A stretch of DNA of 64,000 nt from Zhongshania aquatica (GTDB lineage Bacteria > Pseudomonadota > Gammaproteobacteria > Pseudomonadales > Spongiibacteraceae). Location: positions 1 through 64,000 of the forward strand of contig NZ_JANZNQ010000012.1 in the NCBI RefSeq assembly GCF_027257955.1. The letters run 5' to 3'. The first letter of the stretch is position 1, and every line of letters begins with the position of its first letter. Under the pieces are notes generated by a model. It saw only the letters and a list, made by a program, of their open reading frames with translations. It was not told the origin of the DNA and made no database searches. The position numbers were made by a program, and so were the translations under genes. Below, piece by piece: positions 869 to 43,129 of the stretch.

Positions 869-3800
869 ATGTCTCGCATAAAATGTCTGCATTTGCCGTT
901 ACTTGCCGTCGCGGTCTCATTAGCGGCGTGTAATGACGATAATAAGAGCTCTTCCGGCGCTAGCGCTGAACAGCAATCTGTGGTGGTCGCGCCGTCATTA
1001 GGCCTGATCCGTAACGCACGGATAAAAATATTTCAGGCAGATGGTACGACCTTACTCGGCGAAGGAACGAGTGCTGATGACGGTACCGTTGACGTTAGCT
1101 ATCTTAATTACACTGGTCCGGTTGTTATAGAAGTGCTTGGTGGTGGCAGCGCTATTTATTATGATGAGTCTTTAAAGCAGTTTGCTGCGCTTCCTGCGTC
1201 TGCGACTGTTCGTGCTATCGCGGTATTACCTGCACAAAATCTCGCCGTAACACCACTAACAAACTTGGCGTATGAAATTGCTAAAGCGCGCAGCAGCGCG
1301 ACGCTTACAGCTGCCGACGTAGCCAATATTAATGAACAGGTACGCCTTAGTTTAGCGCCAGGCATTAGCAGCATTTTGGCGGTACCAGAGTTACTAAGCA
1401 GTGCTACAGGCGCTAAGTTGGGTGATACAGATGCGGGTAAACACGCACTAGTGTTAGCAGCTTTGGCTGACCTGTCTTCTGGTAACGCCAGTCCTGCCTT
1501 AAATACATTACTCGCGATGGCAACTGATGGTGCAGACGGCTCTTTAGATGGCTTGGTGGATGGTTCTTCAATAACTGTACCTTATGGCGATTTTATCGCC
1601 GACATGGCAGCGGCATTGTCGCGTCAAGCAAATACCTATGGCAATGCTGCGTTGAAGGCATCGGCTGCAGATCAAAAACCTAGTAGTGCCACTGTTGAAG
1701 AAGGTGATACGGGTGGATCTGGCACAGGTGGTACCGGTGGGTCAGGTACAGGTGGAACGGGTGGTACCGGTGGATCGGGTACAGGCGGAACGGGTGGTAC
1801 CGGTGGATCAGGTACAGGCGGAACGGGTGGTACCGGTGGATCAGGTACAGGTGGAACGGGTGGTACCGGTGGATCGGGTACAGGCGGAACGGGTGGTACC
1901 GGTGGATCGGGTACAGGTGGAACGGGTGGTACCGGTGGATCAGGTACAGGCGGAACGGGTGGTACCGGTGGATCAGGTACCGGCGGAACGGGTGGCAATA
2001 CAGACCCTGCACTTAACAATGAAGGTAAAGGGCGCTTCACCGGCGATGGCTTTACTGGTGACGTTAATGGCGTGACATACACCTACACCGATTCAGTTAA
2101 TGTATTACCTAATAACACTGACAAGACTCAGTTTTACATTGAAGGTCGTGATGCCTCCGCCTTGAGTAAATGGCGGGTAGTTATTCCGAATGCAGTCGGT
2201 ACATATAACTGCGATGACTCCGGCGATGACACGGTTCTGCAGCATCTCAATCAAGGCGGGTTAGCGGTTAATTCCGGTGCTGGCTCAAATGATGGCGACT
2301 GTATAGTTAAGGTCTTGCAAGTTGGTTCGGTTTACGAAGGATACTTTATAGGGAACCTCTATGGCGCAGTAGGGACCCCGCTGAAGCCGGTAACAAACGG
2401 TTACTTCTATGCTACCTCAGAGGTTGTAGACACTGGCGGCGGTGGTGGTAATACCGGCGGCGGCACGGATGGCGGAGTGAGCGGTGATCTGAATAATGCA
2501 GTTTACGATTCTTTGAACGGCCGCAATGGCGCTACAGTTAGCTTCGTTGGCAGTGCAGAATCTTACAACCTAGGAGTTGCCGACGTCGGTAGTGGTTTTG
2601 GCTTGCGCGGACTCGATTTCTATGTTGATCGCACAAGGGACGTGAATACGACCTTATTCCAAGAAGCTTATCCAAGTTATTTAGAGGTCGATATCACTAA
2701 CCCAGTACTGGGCGAACAGGATTGTGGCGATGAGCTAAAAATTCGCTTGAATATGGCAGGTGGCACAAATTCCGGACGCTATTCTGCTAGCGCATGTAAA
2801 ATGCGTCTTGATTATGCCAGCGATATTGGCGGTCTTCAGGGAGTAATTTTATCGGCTACACTGGTCACAACGTCAGATACTAGTCCGACCTTTGAATTAA
2901 TAAACACGCCATTCCGTATTTATCACCATGTCGGTACGGCCGGCGCACTTTCTGGCGATTTGCCATTAGATAAGTTTGGTTCAATCGAAATTGGTGATGG
3001 CGGCACGTTCGAGCTGGGGGATAATCAATATTTCTTACTTGAAAACCGCGTTGGTCTTGGCGGAACGAGCCCTGATGATGGCTCACCAGCATTCACCGGT
3101 AATGCATCAGATGTAATCAGTCTCGTAACTAAGGGCCATCCTAGCTCTGGCTTTGCAGGAGACACAACCTACAACTGCGGAACAGAATATCGCTCACGTG
3201 CTGGTGGTTTAGAGCTAGCTATAAAGGTAGGTACTTATCTGTTAGAGACCAGATATAGCTCTGCGAATAATGTGGCCGCCAATTGCCAGATCGTAACGGT
3301 CGGGCGTGGAGGCAGGTATTATGATGCGTCTTACACTGCAACGCTTATATCAAATGACACCTCACTGGAAGAGTCGCTACGTACTTTGCCAGTGACGGGA
3401 GAATTCCGCAATTACGCGGTTCGGCTAAATCGGCCAGAAGGTGGCGTGGATGATGAAGGCGCACTGAGCTCAGAAGAAGTCGGCGCGACTCTGCAAATTG
3501 AAGATGGCAGTCCAGATTGGCAGACTGGTGATCGCTTCAAATTCCTTGAGGATCAGTTCGACCGCATCTCAGTTTTTGACACGAGCTATGGTATCTCAAT
3601 AGATCGCGGTGAGCGTGTCATGAAATACGGTGTAGAAGTGCTTAATGCGCCACGTGCGGTGGGCGTATATGATTGCGCCAGTATTAACCCAGACAATAGT
3701 CGCATTGTGAACGTTGCGGTTAATGCTGTCGGTGTGAAGTACGAAACCACAACCTATGATAGCGTCTTGAGAAAAACGATCTTGACGCCAGGCGCAGCGT

Positions 3801-3958
3801 GTCAGATTGAAATTGTCAGTGATGATGATGGCTTCGTGAACGGTACTTACACCGCAACCGCGGTTGTAGTGGGGGGCGAGCAAATTATGCCCGGTGGCGA
3901 CAATACAGTTCGTGTATCCGGTACCTTCCGCCGTAAAATAGAGCCCGCTCAACAGTAA
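869..3958 (+). CDS. Large secreted lipoprotein with Gly-rich repeat linker and four Cys-pair domains
   Basis: The 1029-residue protein begins with a lipoprotein signal (lipobox SLAAC, lipidated Cys21), so it should be anchored in the outer membrane. Residues about 24-270 form an Ala-rich domain. Residues about 281-376 are a tract of nearly identical 11-residue Gly/Thr/Ser units. The rest holds four related beta-rich domains, each with two cysteines: about 447/476, 618/643, 769/805 and 934/979. A second short Gly-rich linker lies near 522-535. No catalytic motif is visible and I do not recognise the family. GGAG lies 7 nt before the ATG. The gene is monocistronic with a strong terminator. A surface or adhesion role is only a guess. 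Confidence 0.85.
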   Translation: MSRIKCLHLPLLAVAVSLAACNDDNKSSSGASAEQQSVVVAPSLGLIRNARIKIFQADGTTLLGEGTSADDGTVDVSYLNYTGPVVIEVLGGGSAIYYDESLKQFAALPASATVRAIAVLPAQNLAVTPLTNLAYEIAKARSSATLTAADVANINEQVRLSLAPGISSILAVPELLSSATGAKLGDTDAGKHALVLAALADLSSGNASPALNTLLAMATDGADGSLDGLVDGSSITVPYGDFIADMAAALSRQANTYGNAALKASAADQKPSSATVEEGDTGGSGTGGTGGSGTGGTGGTGGSGTGGTGGTGGSGTGGTGGTGGSGTGGTGGTGGSGTGGTGGTGGSGTGGTGGTGGSGTGGTGGTGGSGTGGTGGNTDPALNNEGKGRFTGDGFTGDVNGVTYTYTDSVNVLPNNTDKTQFYIEGRDASALSKWRVVIPNAVGTYNCDDSGDDTVLQHLNQGGLAVNSGAGSNDGDCIVKVLQVGSVYEGYFIGNLYGAVGTPLKPVTNGYFYATSEVVDTGGGGGNTGGGTDGGVSGDLNNAVYDSLNGRNGATVSFVGSAESYNLGVADVGSGFGLRGLDFYVDRTRDVNTTLFQEAYPSYLEVDITNPVLGEQDCGDELKIRLNMAGGTNSGRYSASACKMRLDYASDIGGLQGVILSATLVTTSDTSPTFELINTPFRIYHHVGTAGALSGDLPLDKFGSIEIGDGGTFELGDNQYFLLENRVGLGGTSPDDGSPAFTGNASDVISLVTKGHPSSGFAGDTTYNCGTEYRSRAGGLELAIKVGTYLLETRYSSANNVAANCQIVTVGRGGRYYDASYTATLISNDTSLEESLRTLPVTGEFRNYAVRLNRPEGGVDDEGALSSEEVGATLQIEDGSPDWQTGDRFKFLEDQFDRISVFDTSYGISIDRGERVMKYGVEVLNAPRAVGVYDCASINPDNSRIVNVAVNAVGVKYETTTYDSVLRKTILTPGAACQIEIVSDDDGFVNGTYTATAVVVGGEQIMPGGDNTVRVSGTFRRKIEPAQQ
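1709..1995 (+). repeat. 33-bp in-frame tandem repeat inside the lipoprotein gene
   Basis: The Ser codons of the GGS motif occur at 1718 and 1742 (24 bp apart), then every 33 bp at 1775, 1808, 1841, 1874, 1907, 1940 and 1973. Copies differ only at a few third positions (TCA/TCG, GGC/GGT), which implies recent expansion. The period is a multiple of three, so copy-number change would alter linker length without a frameshift. It also keeps several other frames open on both strands. Confidence 0.95.
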
Positions 3959-37829: not shown

Positions 37830-39071
37830 TTAGGAGACAGGTTTTTCTAACACGAATTGATATACGTCGATCGAATTGCCGCGGAAGCCACCCTCGCAGT
37901 AGGTCAAGTAGTAATGCCACATTCTCTGGAAGCGCTTATCAAAACCAAGTGGTGCTATCTCGTCCCAACGCTGATGGAAGGTTTTGCCCCACTCCTGCAG
38001 TGTACGAGCATAGCCGAGCCCAAAGGCCTCTTCATCAGCGACGTTAAGACCAGCTTCGATCGCTTTTTCTTTAAAGATGTCGGGTGTGGGCAGCATACCG
38101 CCAGGAAAGATATAGGCTTGTATAAAGTCGGGGCTACTGCGATATATCTCGAATCGTTTGTCCTCAATGGTAATAATTTGAATTGAGGCTTTGCCACCTG
38201 ACTTTAGACGTTTGCGAACGGTCTCGAAATAGGTTGGCCAGTATTTTTCACCAACCGCTTCCAACATTTCAATCGACACAATGTGATCGTATTCTCCGAC
38301 AGTGTCTCGGTAGTCTGTGAGAGTAAATTCTGCTTCGCCAAGGGTGTTCGCGTTTGCCAAGCGTTTTTGAGCGAACTCTAACTGACGTTCAGATAGGGTT
38401 ATACCATGGAGTTTAACCGCTCTTTGTGCACAGACTTGTTCCGCAAAGCCGCCCCAGCCGCAGCCAATTTCAAGAATGCTGTCGCCATCTTTAATATCGA
38501 GCAAATCAATGATGCGCTGATATTTCGCGTACTGAGCGTCGGCAAGCGTTTGTTGCTCGCTGGTGTAGTAGGCCGCCGAGTAGGTCATGCTTGGATCTAG
38601 CCAATGTTGATAAAACTCATTGCCTAAATCATAGTGATAAGAAATATTACGACGACTACCGCGCTTACTGTTGGCGTTGCGCTGGTGGCGCCATTTTTGG
38701 AAAGCGCCCTCTATTTTGCCGCTGTCGAGCATGTCACCAAAGTGATCTTCGTTAATCACTATCCACTCTACTAACATGGCGAGGTCTGGGCTGTCCCAAT
38801 CGCCATCCATATAGGCCTCGCTCCAACCTACAGAGCCACCAGTAAACGCTTTGCGTACGGCCTTCCAGTTGTGGAGTACGATAACAGGATTAAAGTGGTC
38901 GCAGGGATGTTCTCCAAACTGCACACTATTTCCGTTGGGTAAGGTAAGACGAAGTACGCCGCGCGCAGCGTTGGACAACGGTGCAAGTACCTTCGACACC
39001 ATCTGTTGCTGGCGCTTTGCCCACCAGCCAGAACCCATATTACTTTCTAGAGCAGCAGTTGCTGACTTCAT
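37830..39071 (-). CDS. cfa: Cyclopropane-fatty-acyl-phospholipid synthase family methyltransferase
   Basis: The 413-residue enzyme has the CFA-synthase layout: an N-terminal domain with NWKAVRKAFTGGSVGWSEAY, SAM motif I ILEIGCGWGGFAEQ near 198, and a C-terminal catalytic region. It methylates double bonds of membrane phospholipids using SAM. It is the last gene of the operon FAD oxidoreductase-DUF1365-cfa (27-bp gap). AAAGGG precedes its ATG. In this context the product could be a methyl-branched or furan fatty acid rather than cyclopropane. Confidence 0.93.
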   Translation of the reverse strand: MKSATAALESNMGSGWWAKRQQQMVSKVLAPLSNAARGVLRLTLPNGNSVQFGEHPCDHFNPVIVLHNWKAVRKAFTGGSVGWSEAYMDGDWDSPDLAMLVEWIVINEDHFGDMLDSGKIEGAFQKWRHQRNANSKRGSRRNISYHYDLGNEFYQHWLDPSMTYSAAYYTSEQQTLADAQYAKYQRIIDLLDIKDGDSILEIGCGWGGFAEQVCAQRAVKLHGITLSERQLEFAQKRLANANTLGEAEFTLTDYRDTVGEYDHIVSIEMLEAVGEKYWPTYFETVRKRLKSGGKASIQIITIEDKRFEIYRSSPDFIQAYIFPGGMLPTPDIFKEKAIEAGLNVADEEAFGLGYARTLQEWGKTFHQRWDEIAPLGFDKRFQRMWHYYLTYCEGGFRGNSIDVYQFVLEKPVS

Positions 39072-39098: not shown

Positions 39099-39884
39099 TT
39101 ATTGGTCAATACGTGAGATTGAAGATTTTGGTTCAGGTGGGCGAGGGACTAATTTTACCCCTTTTATAAATAGCTTCAGTGCTTCCCAGTGGATACCTGC
39201 AACCGCCTTCATTGTCATGAGTGGAAGACTGAAAAAATTCTTGAGCAGCTCAGTGTCGGTAAATGGTCGATGAGTGCCGCGAAATACCGCGTGGAGCAGG
39301 GCTTGGTTGTTTTCGGTTTCCCGTATTGCCATCGAGATTCTGTCATTGGGTAAGTGCATGCGGAAGTGGTAGCGCATGTCCATGGGAATAAAGGGTGAGA
39401 CGTAAAATGCCTTATCACATTGCTGGCGGATAATGCCTTTTTGCCTGTCTGAGGATGAAATCGGCAGTAAATAGCTATGACGTTGATTAAAGGTATTGCT
39501 AACTTCGTACAGTATCGCAAAGGCCTCATTTTTGGCGTTGTAGCAGTAGTAGACGCTTAGCGGATTAAAGGTGTAACCGAGAACGCGGGGGTAGCATAGA
39601 AGAGCTGCTGAGTTGAGATTGTCGGTGATACCGTGCTCTAGCAGTGTTCGTTCCAGATACTGTCGGGGTGACTCTCCGCTGCCGTTGCCAATATCGCGGT
39701 GATAGAAGCTGAAAACATTAAACGTGTTGACCGAGAACAATTTGCAGCGCTTTGCAGTTTCACTTAGCTTGTCTAAATCAAAGAGAAAACTGCTCATGCG
39801 ATACACAAAGCGATGCTTGCGCGGGTAAAAGCGATGGTGCATCACTTCTCCGTTGTAAATCGCGGTGCGATCGCCGGTACTCAT
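39099..39884 (-). CDS. DUF1365 family protein
   Basis: The 261-residue protein has the family hallmark AIYNGEVMHHRFYPRKHRFVYRMSSFLFDLD and later YNPLSVYYCY-like residues (FNPLSVYYCYNAKNE). DUF1365 proteins are almost always encoded with an FAD oxidoreductase and a CFA synthase, and are implicated in modified fatty acids. The ATG at 39884 overlaps the upstream stop as ATGA; the longer frame to 39947 is not supported. Confidence 0.9.
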   Translation of the reverse strand: MSTGDRTAIYNGEVMHHRFYPRKHRFVYRMSSFLFDLDKLSETAKRCKLFSVNTFNVFSFYHRDIGNGSGESPRQYLERTLLEHGITDNLNSAALLCYPRVLGYTFNPLSVYYCYNAKNEAFAILYEVSNTFNQRHSYLLPISSSDRQKGIIRQQCDKAFYVSPFIPMDMRYHFRMHLPNDRISMAIRETENNQALLHAVFRGTHRPFTDTELLKNFFSLPLMTMKAVAGIHWEALKLFIKGVKLVPRPPEPKSSISRIDQ

Positions 39885-41227
39885 GCAGCTGCGACAAGAG
39901 GGTTGTCCGGTAAACAAATGCGACCGCTGGCATTTTCTGCCGTCCACGGGCGCAGTGCGCCGCCGAGTTGTTCTGCTACAGCGAGTCCGGATTGAATACC
40001 GTCTTCATGAAAACCATAACCAAAATAGCTACCGCAGAACCACGTTCGTTGGGCACCCTGCAGGCTCCAAAGGTGTTTTTGTGCATTTAATGCTGCTTCG
40101 TCAAATACTGGGTGCTGGTAGCTAAAGTGTTTGTATAGCAGGTGCTTGCGTGGCGCTTGCAGCGGGTTGAGGGTGACTATTAACTGCTCTTGGCAGGGCA
40201 GATGCTGAAGCGAGTTCATCCAGTAGCTAACCGACACCTTAGTGTTTTGCTGCGAACTGTCGGCAAGGTAGTTCCAGCTCGACCATACTTCGCCTCGCAC
40301 AGGCATGAGTTTTTCGTCGCGGTGAAGATAGGCGTCATTCTGCTCGTACGCAAAGGCCCCAAGCAGTCTTTTTTCATCCGCGCTAGCATCGGTAAGCATT
40401 GCCAATGATTGATCGGCGTGACTTGCCATAACAACGTGGTCAAAGCGGTGATCTTCGCCATTGATGTCGGTGAGTATGACGTGATCAGCAAAGCGGCGGA
40501 TCTTCGTTATGCCGCAATTCAGCCGAATATCACCGTTAAATGTGCTGTTGATTTTTTTTACATATTCTCGTGAACCGCCAATCACGGTTTGCCATTGCGG
40601 ACGTTCATTGACCTGCAAAAGCCCGTGATTATCGCAGAATCGCAAAAAAGTTTTGGCCGGGTAGGCTAAGAACTTCTCAACTGGCGTTGACCAAATTGCC
40701 GCGCCCATAGGCAGCAGATGGTCTTCACAAAATCCTGGCCCAAACTTTTCACGCTTAAGCAGATCGCCCAGTGAGAGGTCGTCGGGCAAAGTATCCATCC
40801 ATTCGGCACTCTGTTTGTAGAATCGCAATAGGTCGCGAATCATGCCCCAAAAGCGGGGCCTAAACAGATTACGTTTTTGTGCGAACAGGGTAGATATTGA
40901 GTCAGAACCACTGTACTCAAGCCGGCCTTTGTCTAGAGACACGCCGAAAGACATGTCCGTACCTTGATACTTAATACCGAGTTCATTGAATAAGGCCACC
41001 AAGTTGGGGTAGCAGCGCTCATTGAACACGATAAAACCGGTGTCTACGGCGATGGTGCCAGCGCTGGTTTTTACATCGACGGTATTGGTATGCCCGCCCA
41101 AACGAGCGTCTTGCTCGAATAGAGTTACTTTGTGGTTCTTGGCGAGTAGCCACGCACTGCTCAGGCCAGAGATTCCGGAACCGATGACGGCGATATTGAG
41201 AGCGTTTTTTTGTGGTGAAGTTTGCAT
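39881..41227 (-). CDS. FAD-dependent amine-oxidase-like protein of the CFA cluster
   Basis: The 448-residue flavoprotein has an N-terminal dinucleotide-binding motif (IAVIGSGISGLSSAWLLA) and the flavin amine-oxidase segment EQDARLGGHTNT. It is the usual partner of DUF1365 and CFA synthase and probably acts on phospholipid acyl chains. It is the first gene of the three-gene operon. Its start lies about 23 nt downstream of the predicted TSS of the minus-strand ECF-like promoter. Confidence 0.9.
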   Translation of the reverse strand: MQTSPQKNALNIAVIGSGISGLSSAWLLAKNHKVTLFEQDARLGGHTNTVDVKTSAGTIAVDTGFIVFNERCYPNLVALFNELGIKYQGTDMSFGVSLDKGRLEYSGSDSISTLFAQKRNLFRPRFWGMIRDLLRFYKQSAEWMDTLPDDLSLGDLLKREKFGPGFCEDHLLPMGAAIWSTPVEKFLAYPAKTFLRFCDNHGLLQVNERPQWQTVIGGSREYVKKINSTFNGDIRLNCGITKIRRFADHVILTDINGEDHRFDHVVMASHADQSLAMLTDASADEKRLLGAFAYEQNDAYLHRDEKLMPVRGEVWSSWNYLADSSQQNTKVSVSYWMNSLQHLPCQEQLIVTLNPLQAPRKHLLYKHFSYQHPVFDEAALNAQKHLWSLQGAQRTWFCGSYFGYGFHEDGIQSGLAVAEQLGGALRPWTAENASGRICLPDNPLVAAA

Positions 41228-41238
41228 AAGAGTTTCAG

Positions 41239-41266
41239 TGATCTCACAGTCTTTTTAATACGTATA
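41239..41266 (+). promoter_or_regulatory. Predicted ECF-sigma promoter of the MFS operon
   Basis: TGATCT (41239-41244), a 16-nt spacer and CGTATA (41261-41266) fit the TGATC(C) and CGTA/TAAG-like elements recalled for RpoE/ChrR-type (ECF11) promoters. The expected start near 41273 lies about 59 nt before the preferred MFS ATG. Confidence 0.6.
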
Positions 41267-41284
41267 CAGGCCTTAGTCAGATCA
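41257..41284 (-). promoter_or_regulatory. Predicted divergent ECF-sigma promoter of the FAD-oxidoreductase/DUF1365/cfa operon
   Basis: On the minus strand TGATCT (41284-41279), a 16-nt spacer and CGTATT (41262-41257) mirror the plus-strand promoter around a centre at 41261.5. Only the -35 and -10 elements are symmetric while the spacers differ, which favours two promoters over one operator. Confidence 0.6.
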
Positions 41285-41331
41285 CTATGCGGGTCTGTTC
41301 TGGGCCGCTTCATGGCCGCCACGGAGTGTGT

Positions 41332-42579
41332 ATGCGGAGTCCTTTCCAATATTGGCGTTTTATTCGCTATGCATTGCCCGGTTTGCCATTAGCTGCATTA
41401 GGGCTGCCTTTCTACATTTATGCTCCTCTTTGGTTGGCTGAGCAAGGTGGTTATGGTTATACCTTAGTCGGTGCGGTGTTTTTTATTGCGCGTTTCAGTG
41501 ACGTCGTGAGTGATCTACCCGTTGGCGCGTGGGTTGATCGTCGTGGAAGTCATCGCTTATTGTGGCTCGGTTCTTGGGTACTTATTGCCGCTAGCGCGTT
41601 GGCATTGGCACTTATTCCCCACCCTTGGCCGCCGTTGATGCTGGGCCTTTTTCTCGTATTACTCATGTTGGGCTGGACGGGTCTTACTGTACCTTGGTTG
41701 GCCTTACCTGTGAACCTCTCAGAGCACAATATTGATCGTTTGCGTTATAACAGTAGTCGCGAGGGCATATTGTTATTCGGAACCTTGTTGGCGATGTTGG
41801 CTCCCGTATTGCTAGCGCCCTCGGCACTGCCGTCGGCTTTAGCGATACTGTTAGGCGTTCTGCTTTTGGCGGTCTATCTGCAGGGTAGCCAAAATCCCTT
41901 GGAAGAGAGCAACCCCACCTTAAGTTTCAAGGTATTACTGGGCGATAGTCGGGTTCGAAGCCTCGCACTACCGTGGTTTGTAAATATGCTCGCCAATGCA
42001 ATTCCTGGAACCGTATTGCTGTTGTTTATGCGCGAGGTCTTAGGCGCCGAGGATATGGTTCCACTAGCGCTCCTGAGTTATTTTTTGGCGGGACTGATCG
42101 GTGTGCCGTTCTGGTATTTCTTGGCGAGAAAAATAGGTGATTTAACATCATGGCGAATTGGCCTGTGCAGTTCAGCAGTCCTTTTTAGCTTTGCCGCGTT
42201 TCTCGGCGAGGGCGATGTGTATTGGTTTATTGCGATTAGTGTCGGTACTGGCCTTGCCTTGGGAGCAGATCAGGCGCTGCCCTCAGCAATGCAAACGGGT
42301 TTAGCGCAAGCGCTGTCCAAAGAACATGGCGGTGCGGCAATAGGTGCGAGGATGTTTGCGCTTTGGAGTATGTTGAGTAAAGCGGCCATGGGTTTAGCCG
42401 TCGGCGTGTCGTATTTATGGCTTGGTAGCCAAGCAGAATTATTAGTACCGCCAGTATGGGCAATTACCGCAGTATATGTTGTGGCTCCGGTGGTATTGAA
42501 ATTGGTGGTGTATTTTATGCTGGGGCGTTTGCCGGTGGCATGGGTTGGCGGGAGGCAGGTCTATGAACAGGGTAACTAA
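41332..42579 (+). CDS. MFS transporter of the GPH/MelB-like type
   Basis: The 415-residue protein has about 12 hydrophobic segments and the MFS loop GAWVDRRGSHR between helices 2 and 3. MFS permeases often accompany CFA/DUF1365/FAD-oxidoreductase clusters. The substrate is unknown. The ATG at 41332 follows GGAG by 5 nt; an upstream in-frame ATG at 41287 would leave almost no leader after the predicted promoter. It overlaps the next gene by 17 bp. Confidence 0.85.
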   Translation: MRSPFQYWRFIRYALPGLPLAALGLPFYIYAPLWLAEQGGYGYTLVGAVFFIARFSDVVSDLPVGAWVDRRGSHRLLWLGSWVLIAASALALALIPHPWPPLMLGLFLVLLMLGWTGLTVPWLALPVNLSEHNIDRLRYNSSREGILLFGTLLAMLAPVLLAPSALPSALAILLGVLLLAVYLQGSQNPLEESNPTLSFKVLLGDSRVRSLALPWFVNMLANAIPGTVLLLFMREVLGAEDMVPLALLSYFLAGLIGVPFWYFLARKIGDLTSWRIGLCSSAVLFSFAAFLGEGDVYWFIAISVGTGLALGADQALPSAMQTGLAQALSKEHGGAAIGARMFALWSMLSKAAMGLAVGVSYLWLGSQAELLVPPVWAITAVYVVAPVVLKLVVYFMLGRLPVAWVGGRQVYEQGN

Positions 42580-43129
42580 ATTGAAGATGATGCGGACGAT
42601 TTGGCAAGGATTTTTAGTCACGGTTTTACTGTCGATTCACCCTTTAGTGTTCGCCGCAAACTGGCAAACAGTCAGCGGTGAGACGTATACCTTGTTGTGG
42701 AAAGATCTTACCTACACCGAGCTGCAGGTTGATCCTGAGCAAGCAAAGCCAGCGAACTTCGATATTCTCGATATCAGCTATGCTAAACAAATAATTATCG
42801 AATATAAATTAGGTGTGTCGGCGGATCGATTTCGGAAAATGACGTTGAAGGCATTGGATGGTGCATATAACGAACAGGAGTTGTCACGGGCCGCTGATGA
42901 TATTAACCGCTTCTGTAGCTGGTATTTAGGCGTGGAGAAAGGCGATCAATACCGCTTAACGTGGTTGCCTGAGCAAGGTTTAGGGCTTTATTTAAATGAT
43001 AAGCAATTAGGCATGATTGCGTCGCCAGAGTCGGCGGCATTGATTCTGAGCGTATGGTTGGGGCGTGCGGCCGTCAGCGAAGACCAGCGTGATACGATGC
43101 TAGCGGCGTGGCGGGCGACCTCGCTGTAA
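42563..43129 (+). CDS. Exported chalcone-isomerase-like protein
   Basis: The 188-residue product has a signal peptide (about 1-31, cleavage after VFA) and a soluble domain. The segment SYAKQIIIEYKLGVSADRFRK is typical of the bacterial chalcone-isomerase-like family (PF16036), a fold related to fatty-acid-binding proteins. GGGAGG lies 7 nt before the ATG at 42563. Overlap with the MFS gene shows co-transcription. Fatty-acid binding in the periplasm is a reasonable guess. Confidence 0.75.
   Translation: MNRVTKLKMMRTIWQGFLVTVLLSIHPLVFAANWQTVSGETYTLLWKDLTYTELQVDPEQAKPANFDILDISYAKQIIIEYKLGVSADRFRKMTLKALDGAYNEQELSRAADDINRFCSWYLGVEKGDQYRLTWLPEQGLGLYLNDKQLGMIASPESAALILSVWLGRAAVSEDQRDTMLAAWRATSL

Follow-up and report, generated by a model that had tools for sequence, protein, structure and literature searches.

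The closest described counterparts of the locus considered here are the bidirectional promoters of the sigma-70 type. According to the accessible parts of the reports, they consist of a short symmetric sequence with a shared -10 element that RNA polymerase can use in either orientation (PMC12825309, PMC10268837), and the binding of two polymerases at the same time is sterically excluded (PMC12825309). The divergent start sites lie from a few bp to 25 bp apart, most often 18 bp (PMC12825309, PMC10268837), and this usual spacing sets key -10 bases opposite each other (PMC10268837). The basal activity of five tested promoters was too low for competition; in E. coli, competition occurred only at raised activity, strong activation of one side could repress the other, and interference lowered noise (all PMC12825309). 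In a Salmonella ChIP-exo study, as far as its accessible text goes, one RpoE binding site was assigned to a divergent promoter region, with no mention there of a shared -10 (PMC10794520).

The promoters of group ECF11 sigma factors provide the second point of comparison. Their sequence is given as TGATCC-N16-CGTA for Shewanella RpoE2 (PMC4336711) and for PSPTO_1043 of P. syringae, where the sites are listed with binding-peak scores (PMC5507510), and as TGATC-N16-18-CGTAW for V. cholerae (PMC5241685). The targets named for Shewanella RpoE2 include a cfa-containing operon, a glutathione peroxidase and an SDR gene, the latter two being predictions, and ybgA (PMC4336711). In the furan fatty acid pathway of R. 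sphaeroides, UfaO carries DUF1365, and UfaD (RSP1091) is its neighbour in a singlet-oxygen-responsive operon, as described in the accessible text of PMC7380195.

The window analysed here is a stretch of 64,000 nucleotides from Zhongshania aquatica (contig NZ_JANZNQ010000012.1). Sequence inspection and a motif scan revealed TGATCT-N16-CGTAT on either strand of a 46-bp element at 41239–41284, TGATCTCACAGTCTTTTTAATACGTATACAGGCCTTAGTCAGATCA, with a complete -35/-10 pair in each direction, placed at 41239–41264 on the plus strand and at 41284–41259 on the minus strand. Its predicted parts are as follows:

41239–41244, + strand: -35 box TGATCT of the rightward promoter, toward the MFS gene (TGATC in 16 of 17 genus loci)
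41261–41265, + strand: -10 element CGTAT of the rightward promoter (CGTA in 17 of 17 genus loci)
41279–41284, - strand: -35 box TGATCT of the leftward promoter, toward the amine-oxidase-like gene (TGATC intact in 12 of 17 genus loci)
41258–41262, - strand: -10 element CGTAT of the leftward promoter (CGTA in 15 of 17 genus loci)
41259–41264, no strand: palindromic core TACGTA, containing both -10 elements (TACGTA in 15 of 17 genus loci)

The two CGTAT elements overlap at the CG of 41261–41262, within their common TACGTA core. The initial annotation had described this mirrored arrangement with a two-base overlap and unrelated spacers, and both descriptions hold: the spacers in the window are self-complementary at 5 of 15 positions. 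The outer arms are slightly longer than first described (AGTGATCT / AGATCACT at 41237–41244 and 41279–41286), being exact over 8 bp and 91% complementary over 11 nt. The TACGTA core would provide the symmetric -10 of a bidirectional promoter, and the combination of TGATC[C/T] and CGTA 16 nt apart, typical of ECF11 promoters, is present on both strands. A consensus scan detected no sigma-70-like sites in 41150–41400; thus, the element represents a variant, rather than a plain member, of the described bidirectional promoters. We conclude, mainly from comparison of sequences, that 41239–41284 is very probably (roughly 0.9) a single bidirectional promoter for an ECF11-type sigma factor, the RpoE of an RpoE-ChrR pair.

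The genes on either side are listed below:

39881–41227, - strand: FAD amine-oxidase-family protein, first gene of the leftward operon (Pfam PF01593, PF13450)
39099–39836, - strand: DUF1365 protein, UfaO-like (Pfam PF07103, 246 bits)
37830–39071, - strand: cyclopropane-fatty-acid-synthase-type methyltransferase (Pfam CMAS, 284 bits)
41332–42579, + strand: MFS/GPH-type transporter, first gene of the rightward unit (Pfam MFS_2; close relatives)
42545–43129, + strand: chalcone-isomerase-like protein, next rightward gene, open frame as listed with a provisional start (Pfam Chalcone_3 on 42578–43126)

The start of the MFS gene was placed at 41332 and not at 41287 because the ATG at 41332 is preceded by GGAG and aligns in close relatives. 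In relatives, too, the chalcone-isomerase-like gene is adjacent. The ATG of the amine oxidase, at 41227, lies about 24 nt past the expected leftward start site. Judging by gene order, we take the amine oxidase to be UfaD-like and the CFA-type methyltransferase to be UfaM-like. Elsewhere in the window, a long open frame at 869–3958 encodes a protein with a glycine-rich GTGGTGGSG-like repeat array.

In 17 genomes of the genus, the window's own among them, the amine oxidase and MFS genes adjoin and are oriented divergently; G009 of the genus is without the MFS gene and without a close amine oxidase. The exact 46-bp mirror stands between the same two genes in 11 of the 17 loci. Among named records, the exact mirror is present at this site in five of Zhongshania, one of Spongiibacter marinus and one of Neomelitea salexigens. 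The other six loci are one-sided, the amine-oxidase side being lost in five (G002, G010, G006, G011 and G014) and the MFS side in G001. Since only one intact direction is kept in these six, two-way activity is not essential. Across all 17 loci, four of which (G001, G002, G011 and G014) were put in register with anchors chosen by hand, 13 parsimony changes fall in the 16 box columns versus 148 in the 30 spacer columns, and none of 100,000 random sets of 16 columns had as few changes as the boxes. The count over all 17 was used because the 11 mirrored loci have no box changes by construction. Conservation in relatives, proposed in the initial annotation as a check, is therefore found for the boxes, which change more slowly than the spacers, and for the exact mirror in 11 of 17 loci, but not for both directions throughout. 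In one genome (G015, L073), the homologue of the amine oxidase is broken up into two matches that overlap, which points to a frameshift or an assembly error.

How rare is such an arrangement? For the single motif TGATCY-N16-CGTA, 0.11 matches are expected in the window, and one of 100 window shuffles had at least two matches. In the whole genome, 20 matches were detected versus 7 for the reversed control, so one copy of the motif alone is weak evidence. The genome scan suggested at the outset returned more matches than its control, and several of them are inside genes: among the 18 other matches inspected (L003–L020, with L011 left out), several are within open frames and others are upstream of a gene. 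Three of the latter genes are, judging from the starts of their proteins, presumably YbgA/DUF523-like (L015), SRPBCC-like (L014) and DUF4331-like (L018). The mirrored form was searched as TGATC-N15-TACGTA-N15-GATCA, with the reversed pattern as a control, and is far rarer than the single motif. In a draw from the order, it was present in 12 of 390 genomes, 10 of these 12 belonging to the genus, which contributed 17 genomes to the draw; the reversed control gave 0 matches in the order-draw table. In a draw from the class, the only match among 369 genomes was the window's own genome. One match of the order draw (G085) sits in a 325-codon frame, and another (G332) is due to a palindromic repeat described below. 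When up to 2 mismatches are allowed, the mirrored pattern is no longer discriminating: it turns up in 39 of 57 relatives, in many of them at unrelated places.

A mirror scan of a genome collection (84,980 species by its description) yielded 37 stretches. Seven were at the amine oxidase and MFS pair, two at a glutathione peroxidase and SDR pair in alphaproteobacteria (L119, L121), and one at an epimerase (DUF1731) and CbiX pair in a Marinomonas MAG (L093), while the remaining 27 were treated as chance or unassigned. All of the 27 are inside an open frame of at least 100 codons except L129 (Chloroflexi), which lies between divergent frames. However, seven of the ten stretches that were kept are also in a stop-to-stop frame of at least 100 codons. 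The frame test alone cannot separate real from chance mirrors because stop-to-stop frames extend upstream of likely starts; it is gene content together with conservation that tells them apart. Among the stretches set aside, L114 (Vibrio) is near a frame start and reads as the N-terminus of a protein, which we take to be a FadH-type reductase, and L106 and L120 both represent one Pseudomonas repeat that is palindromic throughout. This fully palindromic 46-bp sequence (L089, L092, L106, L120) is present in two copies in G332 and in two stretches of Pseudomonas sp. EpS/L25, and looks like a repeat and not a promoter. The predicted mirrored promoters at the two further gene pairs are:

L119 7035–7080, L121 1215–1260, and L162: mirrored ECF11-type promoter between glutathione peroxidase and SDR genes
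L093 4687–4732, and L183, L184, L185 1501–1546: mirrored ECF11-type promoter between DUF1731 epimerase and CbiX-like genes

L119 and L121 share the same gene pair (58% and 48% identity) and differ in their spacers. The mirror was also present in a further genome whose glutathione peroxidase is 98% identical to that of L119. The family of the L119 genome comprises nine genomes, seven of which gave a glutathione peroxidase match at E <= 0.001, and within it the mirror is confined to the L119 genome and its 98%-identical relative. Four homologues of 51–56% identity (L163–L166) showed no SDR match and no motif upstream, and the seventh matching genome gave weak partial matches only. The order to which the L121 genome belongs was covered with 297 genomes, that genome among them, and yielded no second exact mirror. 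In the genus of L093, two other genomes have the mirror in the epimerase-cbiX gap; each departs from it at one box position and has different spacers, and the 46-bp register is unchanged. Together with the exact one, this makes 3 of 48 genomes. Allowing up to one mismatch gives hits in 5 of 48 genomes of the G759 genus; L181 and L182, which have TGGTCT and lie at other genes, were left out of the count, as was L186, a further one-mismatch site of G759 itself. From the different gene pairs and lineages, we infer three independent origins of the mirror.

These data bear on the possibility that one direction alone is functional and that the other half is a by-product of a palindromic -10 element and chance. 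A TACGTA core does yield a second -10 automatically, and one-sided loci do occur. Nevertheless, both -35 boxes are placed at the exact distance in 11 of the 17 genus loci while the spacers diverge, and both are also kept at the two further gene pairs, making a one-way promoter improbable.

The bidirectional ECF11-type promoter calls for a cognate sigma factor, and one of the 20 genomic motif matches is found just upstream of an ECF sigma gene, which is followed by a ChrR gene. The best PDB match of the sigma factor is R. sphaeroides RpoE (2q1z, E 5e-34) and that of the anti-sigma factor is ChrR (2z2s); the latter scores 191 bits with TIGR02451 (cut-off 124.5). The group label ECF11 is a presumptive assignment for this sigma factor. 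The motif before the sigma gene, TGATCT-N16-CGTA, is the same as that in the window, suggesting autoregulation. ChrR was over the cut-off in 21 of 22 genomes probed, including those of L119 and L093, and gave a weak match only in G758, which holds L121. In 20 of 21 sigma-ChrR loci, two of which (G003, G765) look identical, the motif precedes the sigma gene by no more than 260 bp, with a 16-nt spacer in 19 and a 17-nt spacer in one; no reverse-strand motif was seen upstream of the sigma gene in the genus rows. G009 of the genus has ChrR and no motif upstream of the sigma gene. A second protein (G000 C52:241200–241829; L021, L022), which has two tandem ChrR-type cupin domains (PF12973), is below the cut-off of the ChrR anti-sigma model. 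The reading as ECF-type promoters, put forward in the initial annotation, is thus well supported by the cognate ECF11-ChrR pair with the same motif upstream, by targets of the ECF11 type, and by boxes that are conserved while spacers are not.

Outside the genus, the gene order differs. In two genomes of a sister genus (G018, G019), the chalcone-like gene is directly divergent from the amine oxidase, with no adjoining MFS gene, and a single TGATC-N16-CGTA precedes the amine oxidase. In G056 and G027 (loci L170 and L171, respectively), the amine-oxidase operon is divergent from sigma-chrR, and the gap contains two separate, non-overlapping ECF-type promoters; the sigma gene there shares a gap with its presumed target. 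In G056, an MFS homologue (31–34% identity) comes after aox-DUF1365-CFA and has the same orientation, and in G043 one is located about 2.7 kb downstream of the amine oxidase, again on the same strand, so that MFS and ufa-like genes are associated outside this genus as well. The simplest inference is that the transporter was once co-directional and turned divergent in the genus, its co-regulation being kept by the mirrored promoter.

The symmetry of the element could also reflect the operator of a conventional dimeric repressor or activator, with the resemblance to promoters being secondary. The near-perfect dyad, with its outer arms exact over 8 bp and at 91% over 11 nt, is what such an operator would offer. 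An operator's half-sites would be expected to be conserved as a unit apart from promoter elements, whereas a full -35/-10 pair survives on one side in the six non-mirror genus loci (the MFS side in five and the amine-oxidase side in one). Moreover, the single motif before the amine oxidase in the sister genus and the forward-only motif in 20 of 21 sigma-chrR loci carry the promoter elements without the mirror, and widely spaced outer arms with unconserved spacers would be unlike the usual operator. Binding of the dyad by a conventional repressor, which the initial annotation had named as the finding that would overturn its reading, is disfavoured by the one-sided promoters without a dyad in 6 of 17 loci, and we regard the operator as even less probable than a one-way promoter. 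Control by Dam methylation, suggested by the GATC in both -35 boxes, can be practically dismissed, since GATC belongs to the ECF11 -35 consensus anyway and a search with TIGR00571 (Dam family) gave no match in the genome at E <= 0.001, with the E. coli control among those matched.

If the element is a bidirectional ECF11-type promoter, ChrR would release the sigma factor, as it does in characterised systems upon singlet oxygen or related oxidative stress, and the holoenzyme could then occupy this 46-bp element facing either way, the two orientations being mirror images with separate -35 boxes and a common palindromic -10 (TACGTA). One orientation would lead to transcription of the ufa-like amine oxidase-DUF1365-CFA operon and the other to that of the MFS and chalcone-isomerase-like genes. 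Both directions could not be open at once because the holoenzyme in one orientation would occupy the -10 of the other; one bound polymerase would thus exclude the other, and one signal would induce both units at one binding site. Sigma dependence, mutual exclusion and any effect on the output ratio are predictions of this model. Start sites would be about 17–21 bp apart if transcription begins 6–8 nt past CGTA, and the C and G of CGTA would pair with the G and C of the opposite-strand CGTA, a formal parallel to the sigma-70 spacing. As one sigma factor would drive both sides, co-induction with competition at high activity is to be expected, and not a switch. Of the two behaviours initially envisaged, competition between the directions is plausible, while a deterministic alternation finds no support.

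Mutually exclusive bidirectional promoters with a shared -10 are already known for sigma-70, as the accessible text of PMC12825309 and PMC10268837 makes clear. At the level of titles and abstracts, we found no prior description of an ECF bidirectional promoter with a shared -10 in the open-access literature. What is new here is the alternative sigma factor, the two complete -35 boxes and the recurrence at two further gene pairs. The view of the site as an unusual divergent control device thus applies to the ECF form with two full -35 boxes but not to bidirectionality as such, which is common in bacterial promoters.

We tentatively suggest, as a possibility that is rather doubtful at present, that mirrored ECF promoters are a recurrent, selected "splitter", in which the shared polymerase site fixes the ratio and limits the noise of two outputs that rise together, in contrast to the see-saw produced by an activator that acts in favour of one direction at a sigma-70 bidirectional promoter. 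Independently of this suggestion, a two-way ECF promoter would extend bidirectional promoters from sigma-70 to an alternative sigma factor, with both directions turned on by one signal. Whether competing polymerases at a common -10 determine the ratio and noise of two co-induced outputs could then be examined in a natural setting, with one-sided relatives available for comparison, and the 46-bp signature could be used for finding such promoters.

Compared with the known systems, the element resembles the ECF11 promoters of Shewanella RpoE2, P. syringae PSPTO_1043 and V. cholerae in TGATCC/T, the 16-nt spacer and CGTA, but a mirrored pair is not described for these promoters in the accessible parts of the three reports (PMC4336711, PMC5507510, PMC5241685). 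The leftward operon resembles R. sphaeroides RSP1091-1087 (ufaD-ufaO) plus ufaM in that the DUF1365 protein UfaO is encoded next to UfaD, among genes responding to singlet oxygen (PMC7380195, accessible text), the window's amine oxidase and methyltransferase being the presumed counterparts of UfaD and UfaM; however, the R. sphaeroides ufa operon is co-directional, whereas the transporter gene in the window faces the opposite way from the shared promoter. With the bidirectional promoters of Warman, Grainger and co-workers, as they appear in the text available, the element has in common a symmetric shared -10 and a site that polymerase could use either way. Those promoters are of the sigma-70 type and rely on -10 symmetry, while here an ECF-type CGTA -10 is combined with a full -35 box on each side, so that one sigma factor would induce both sides.
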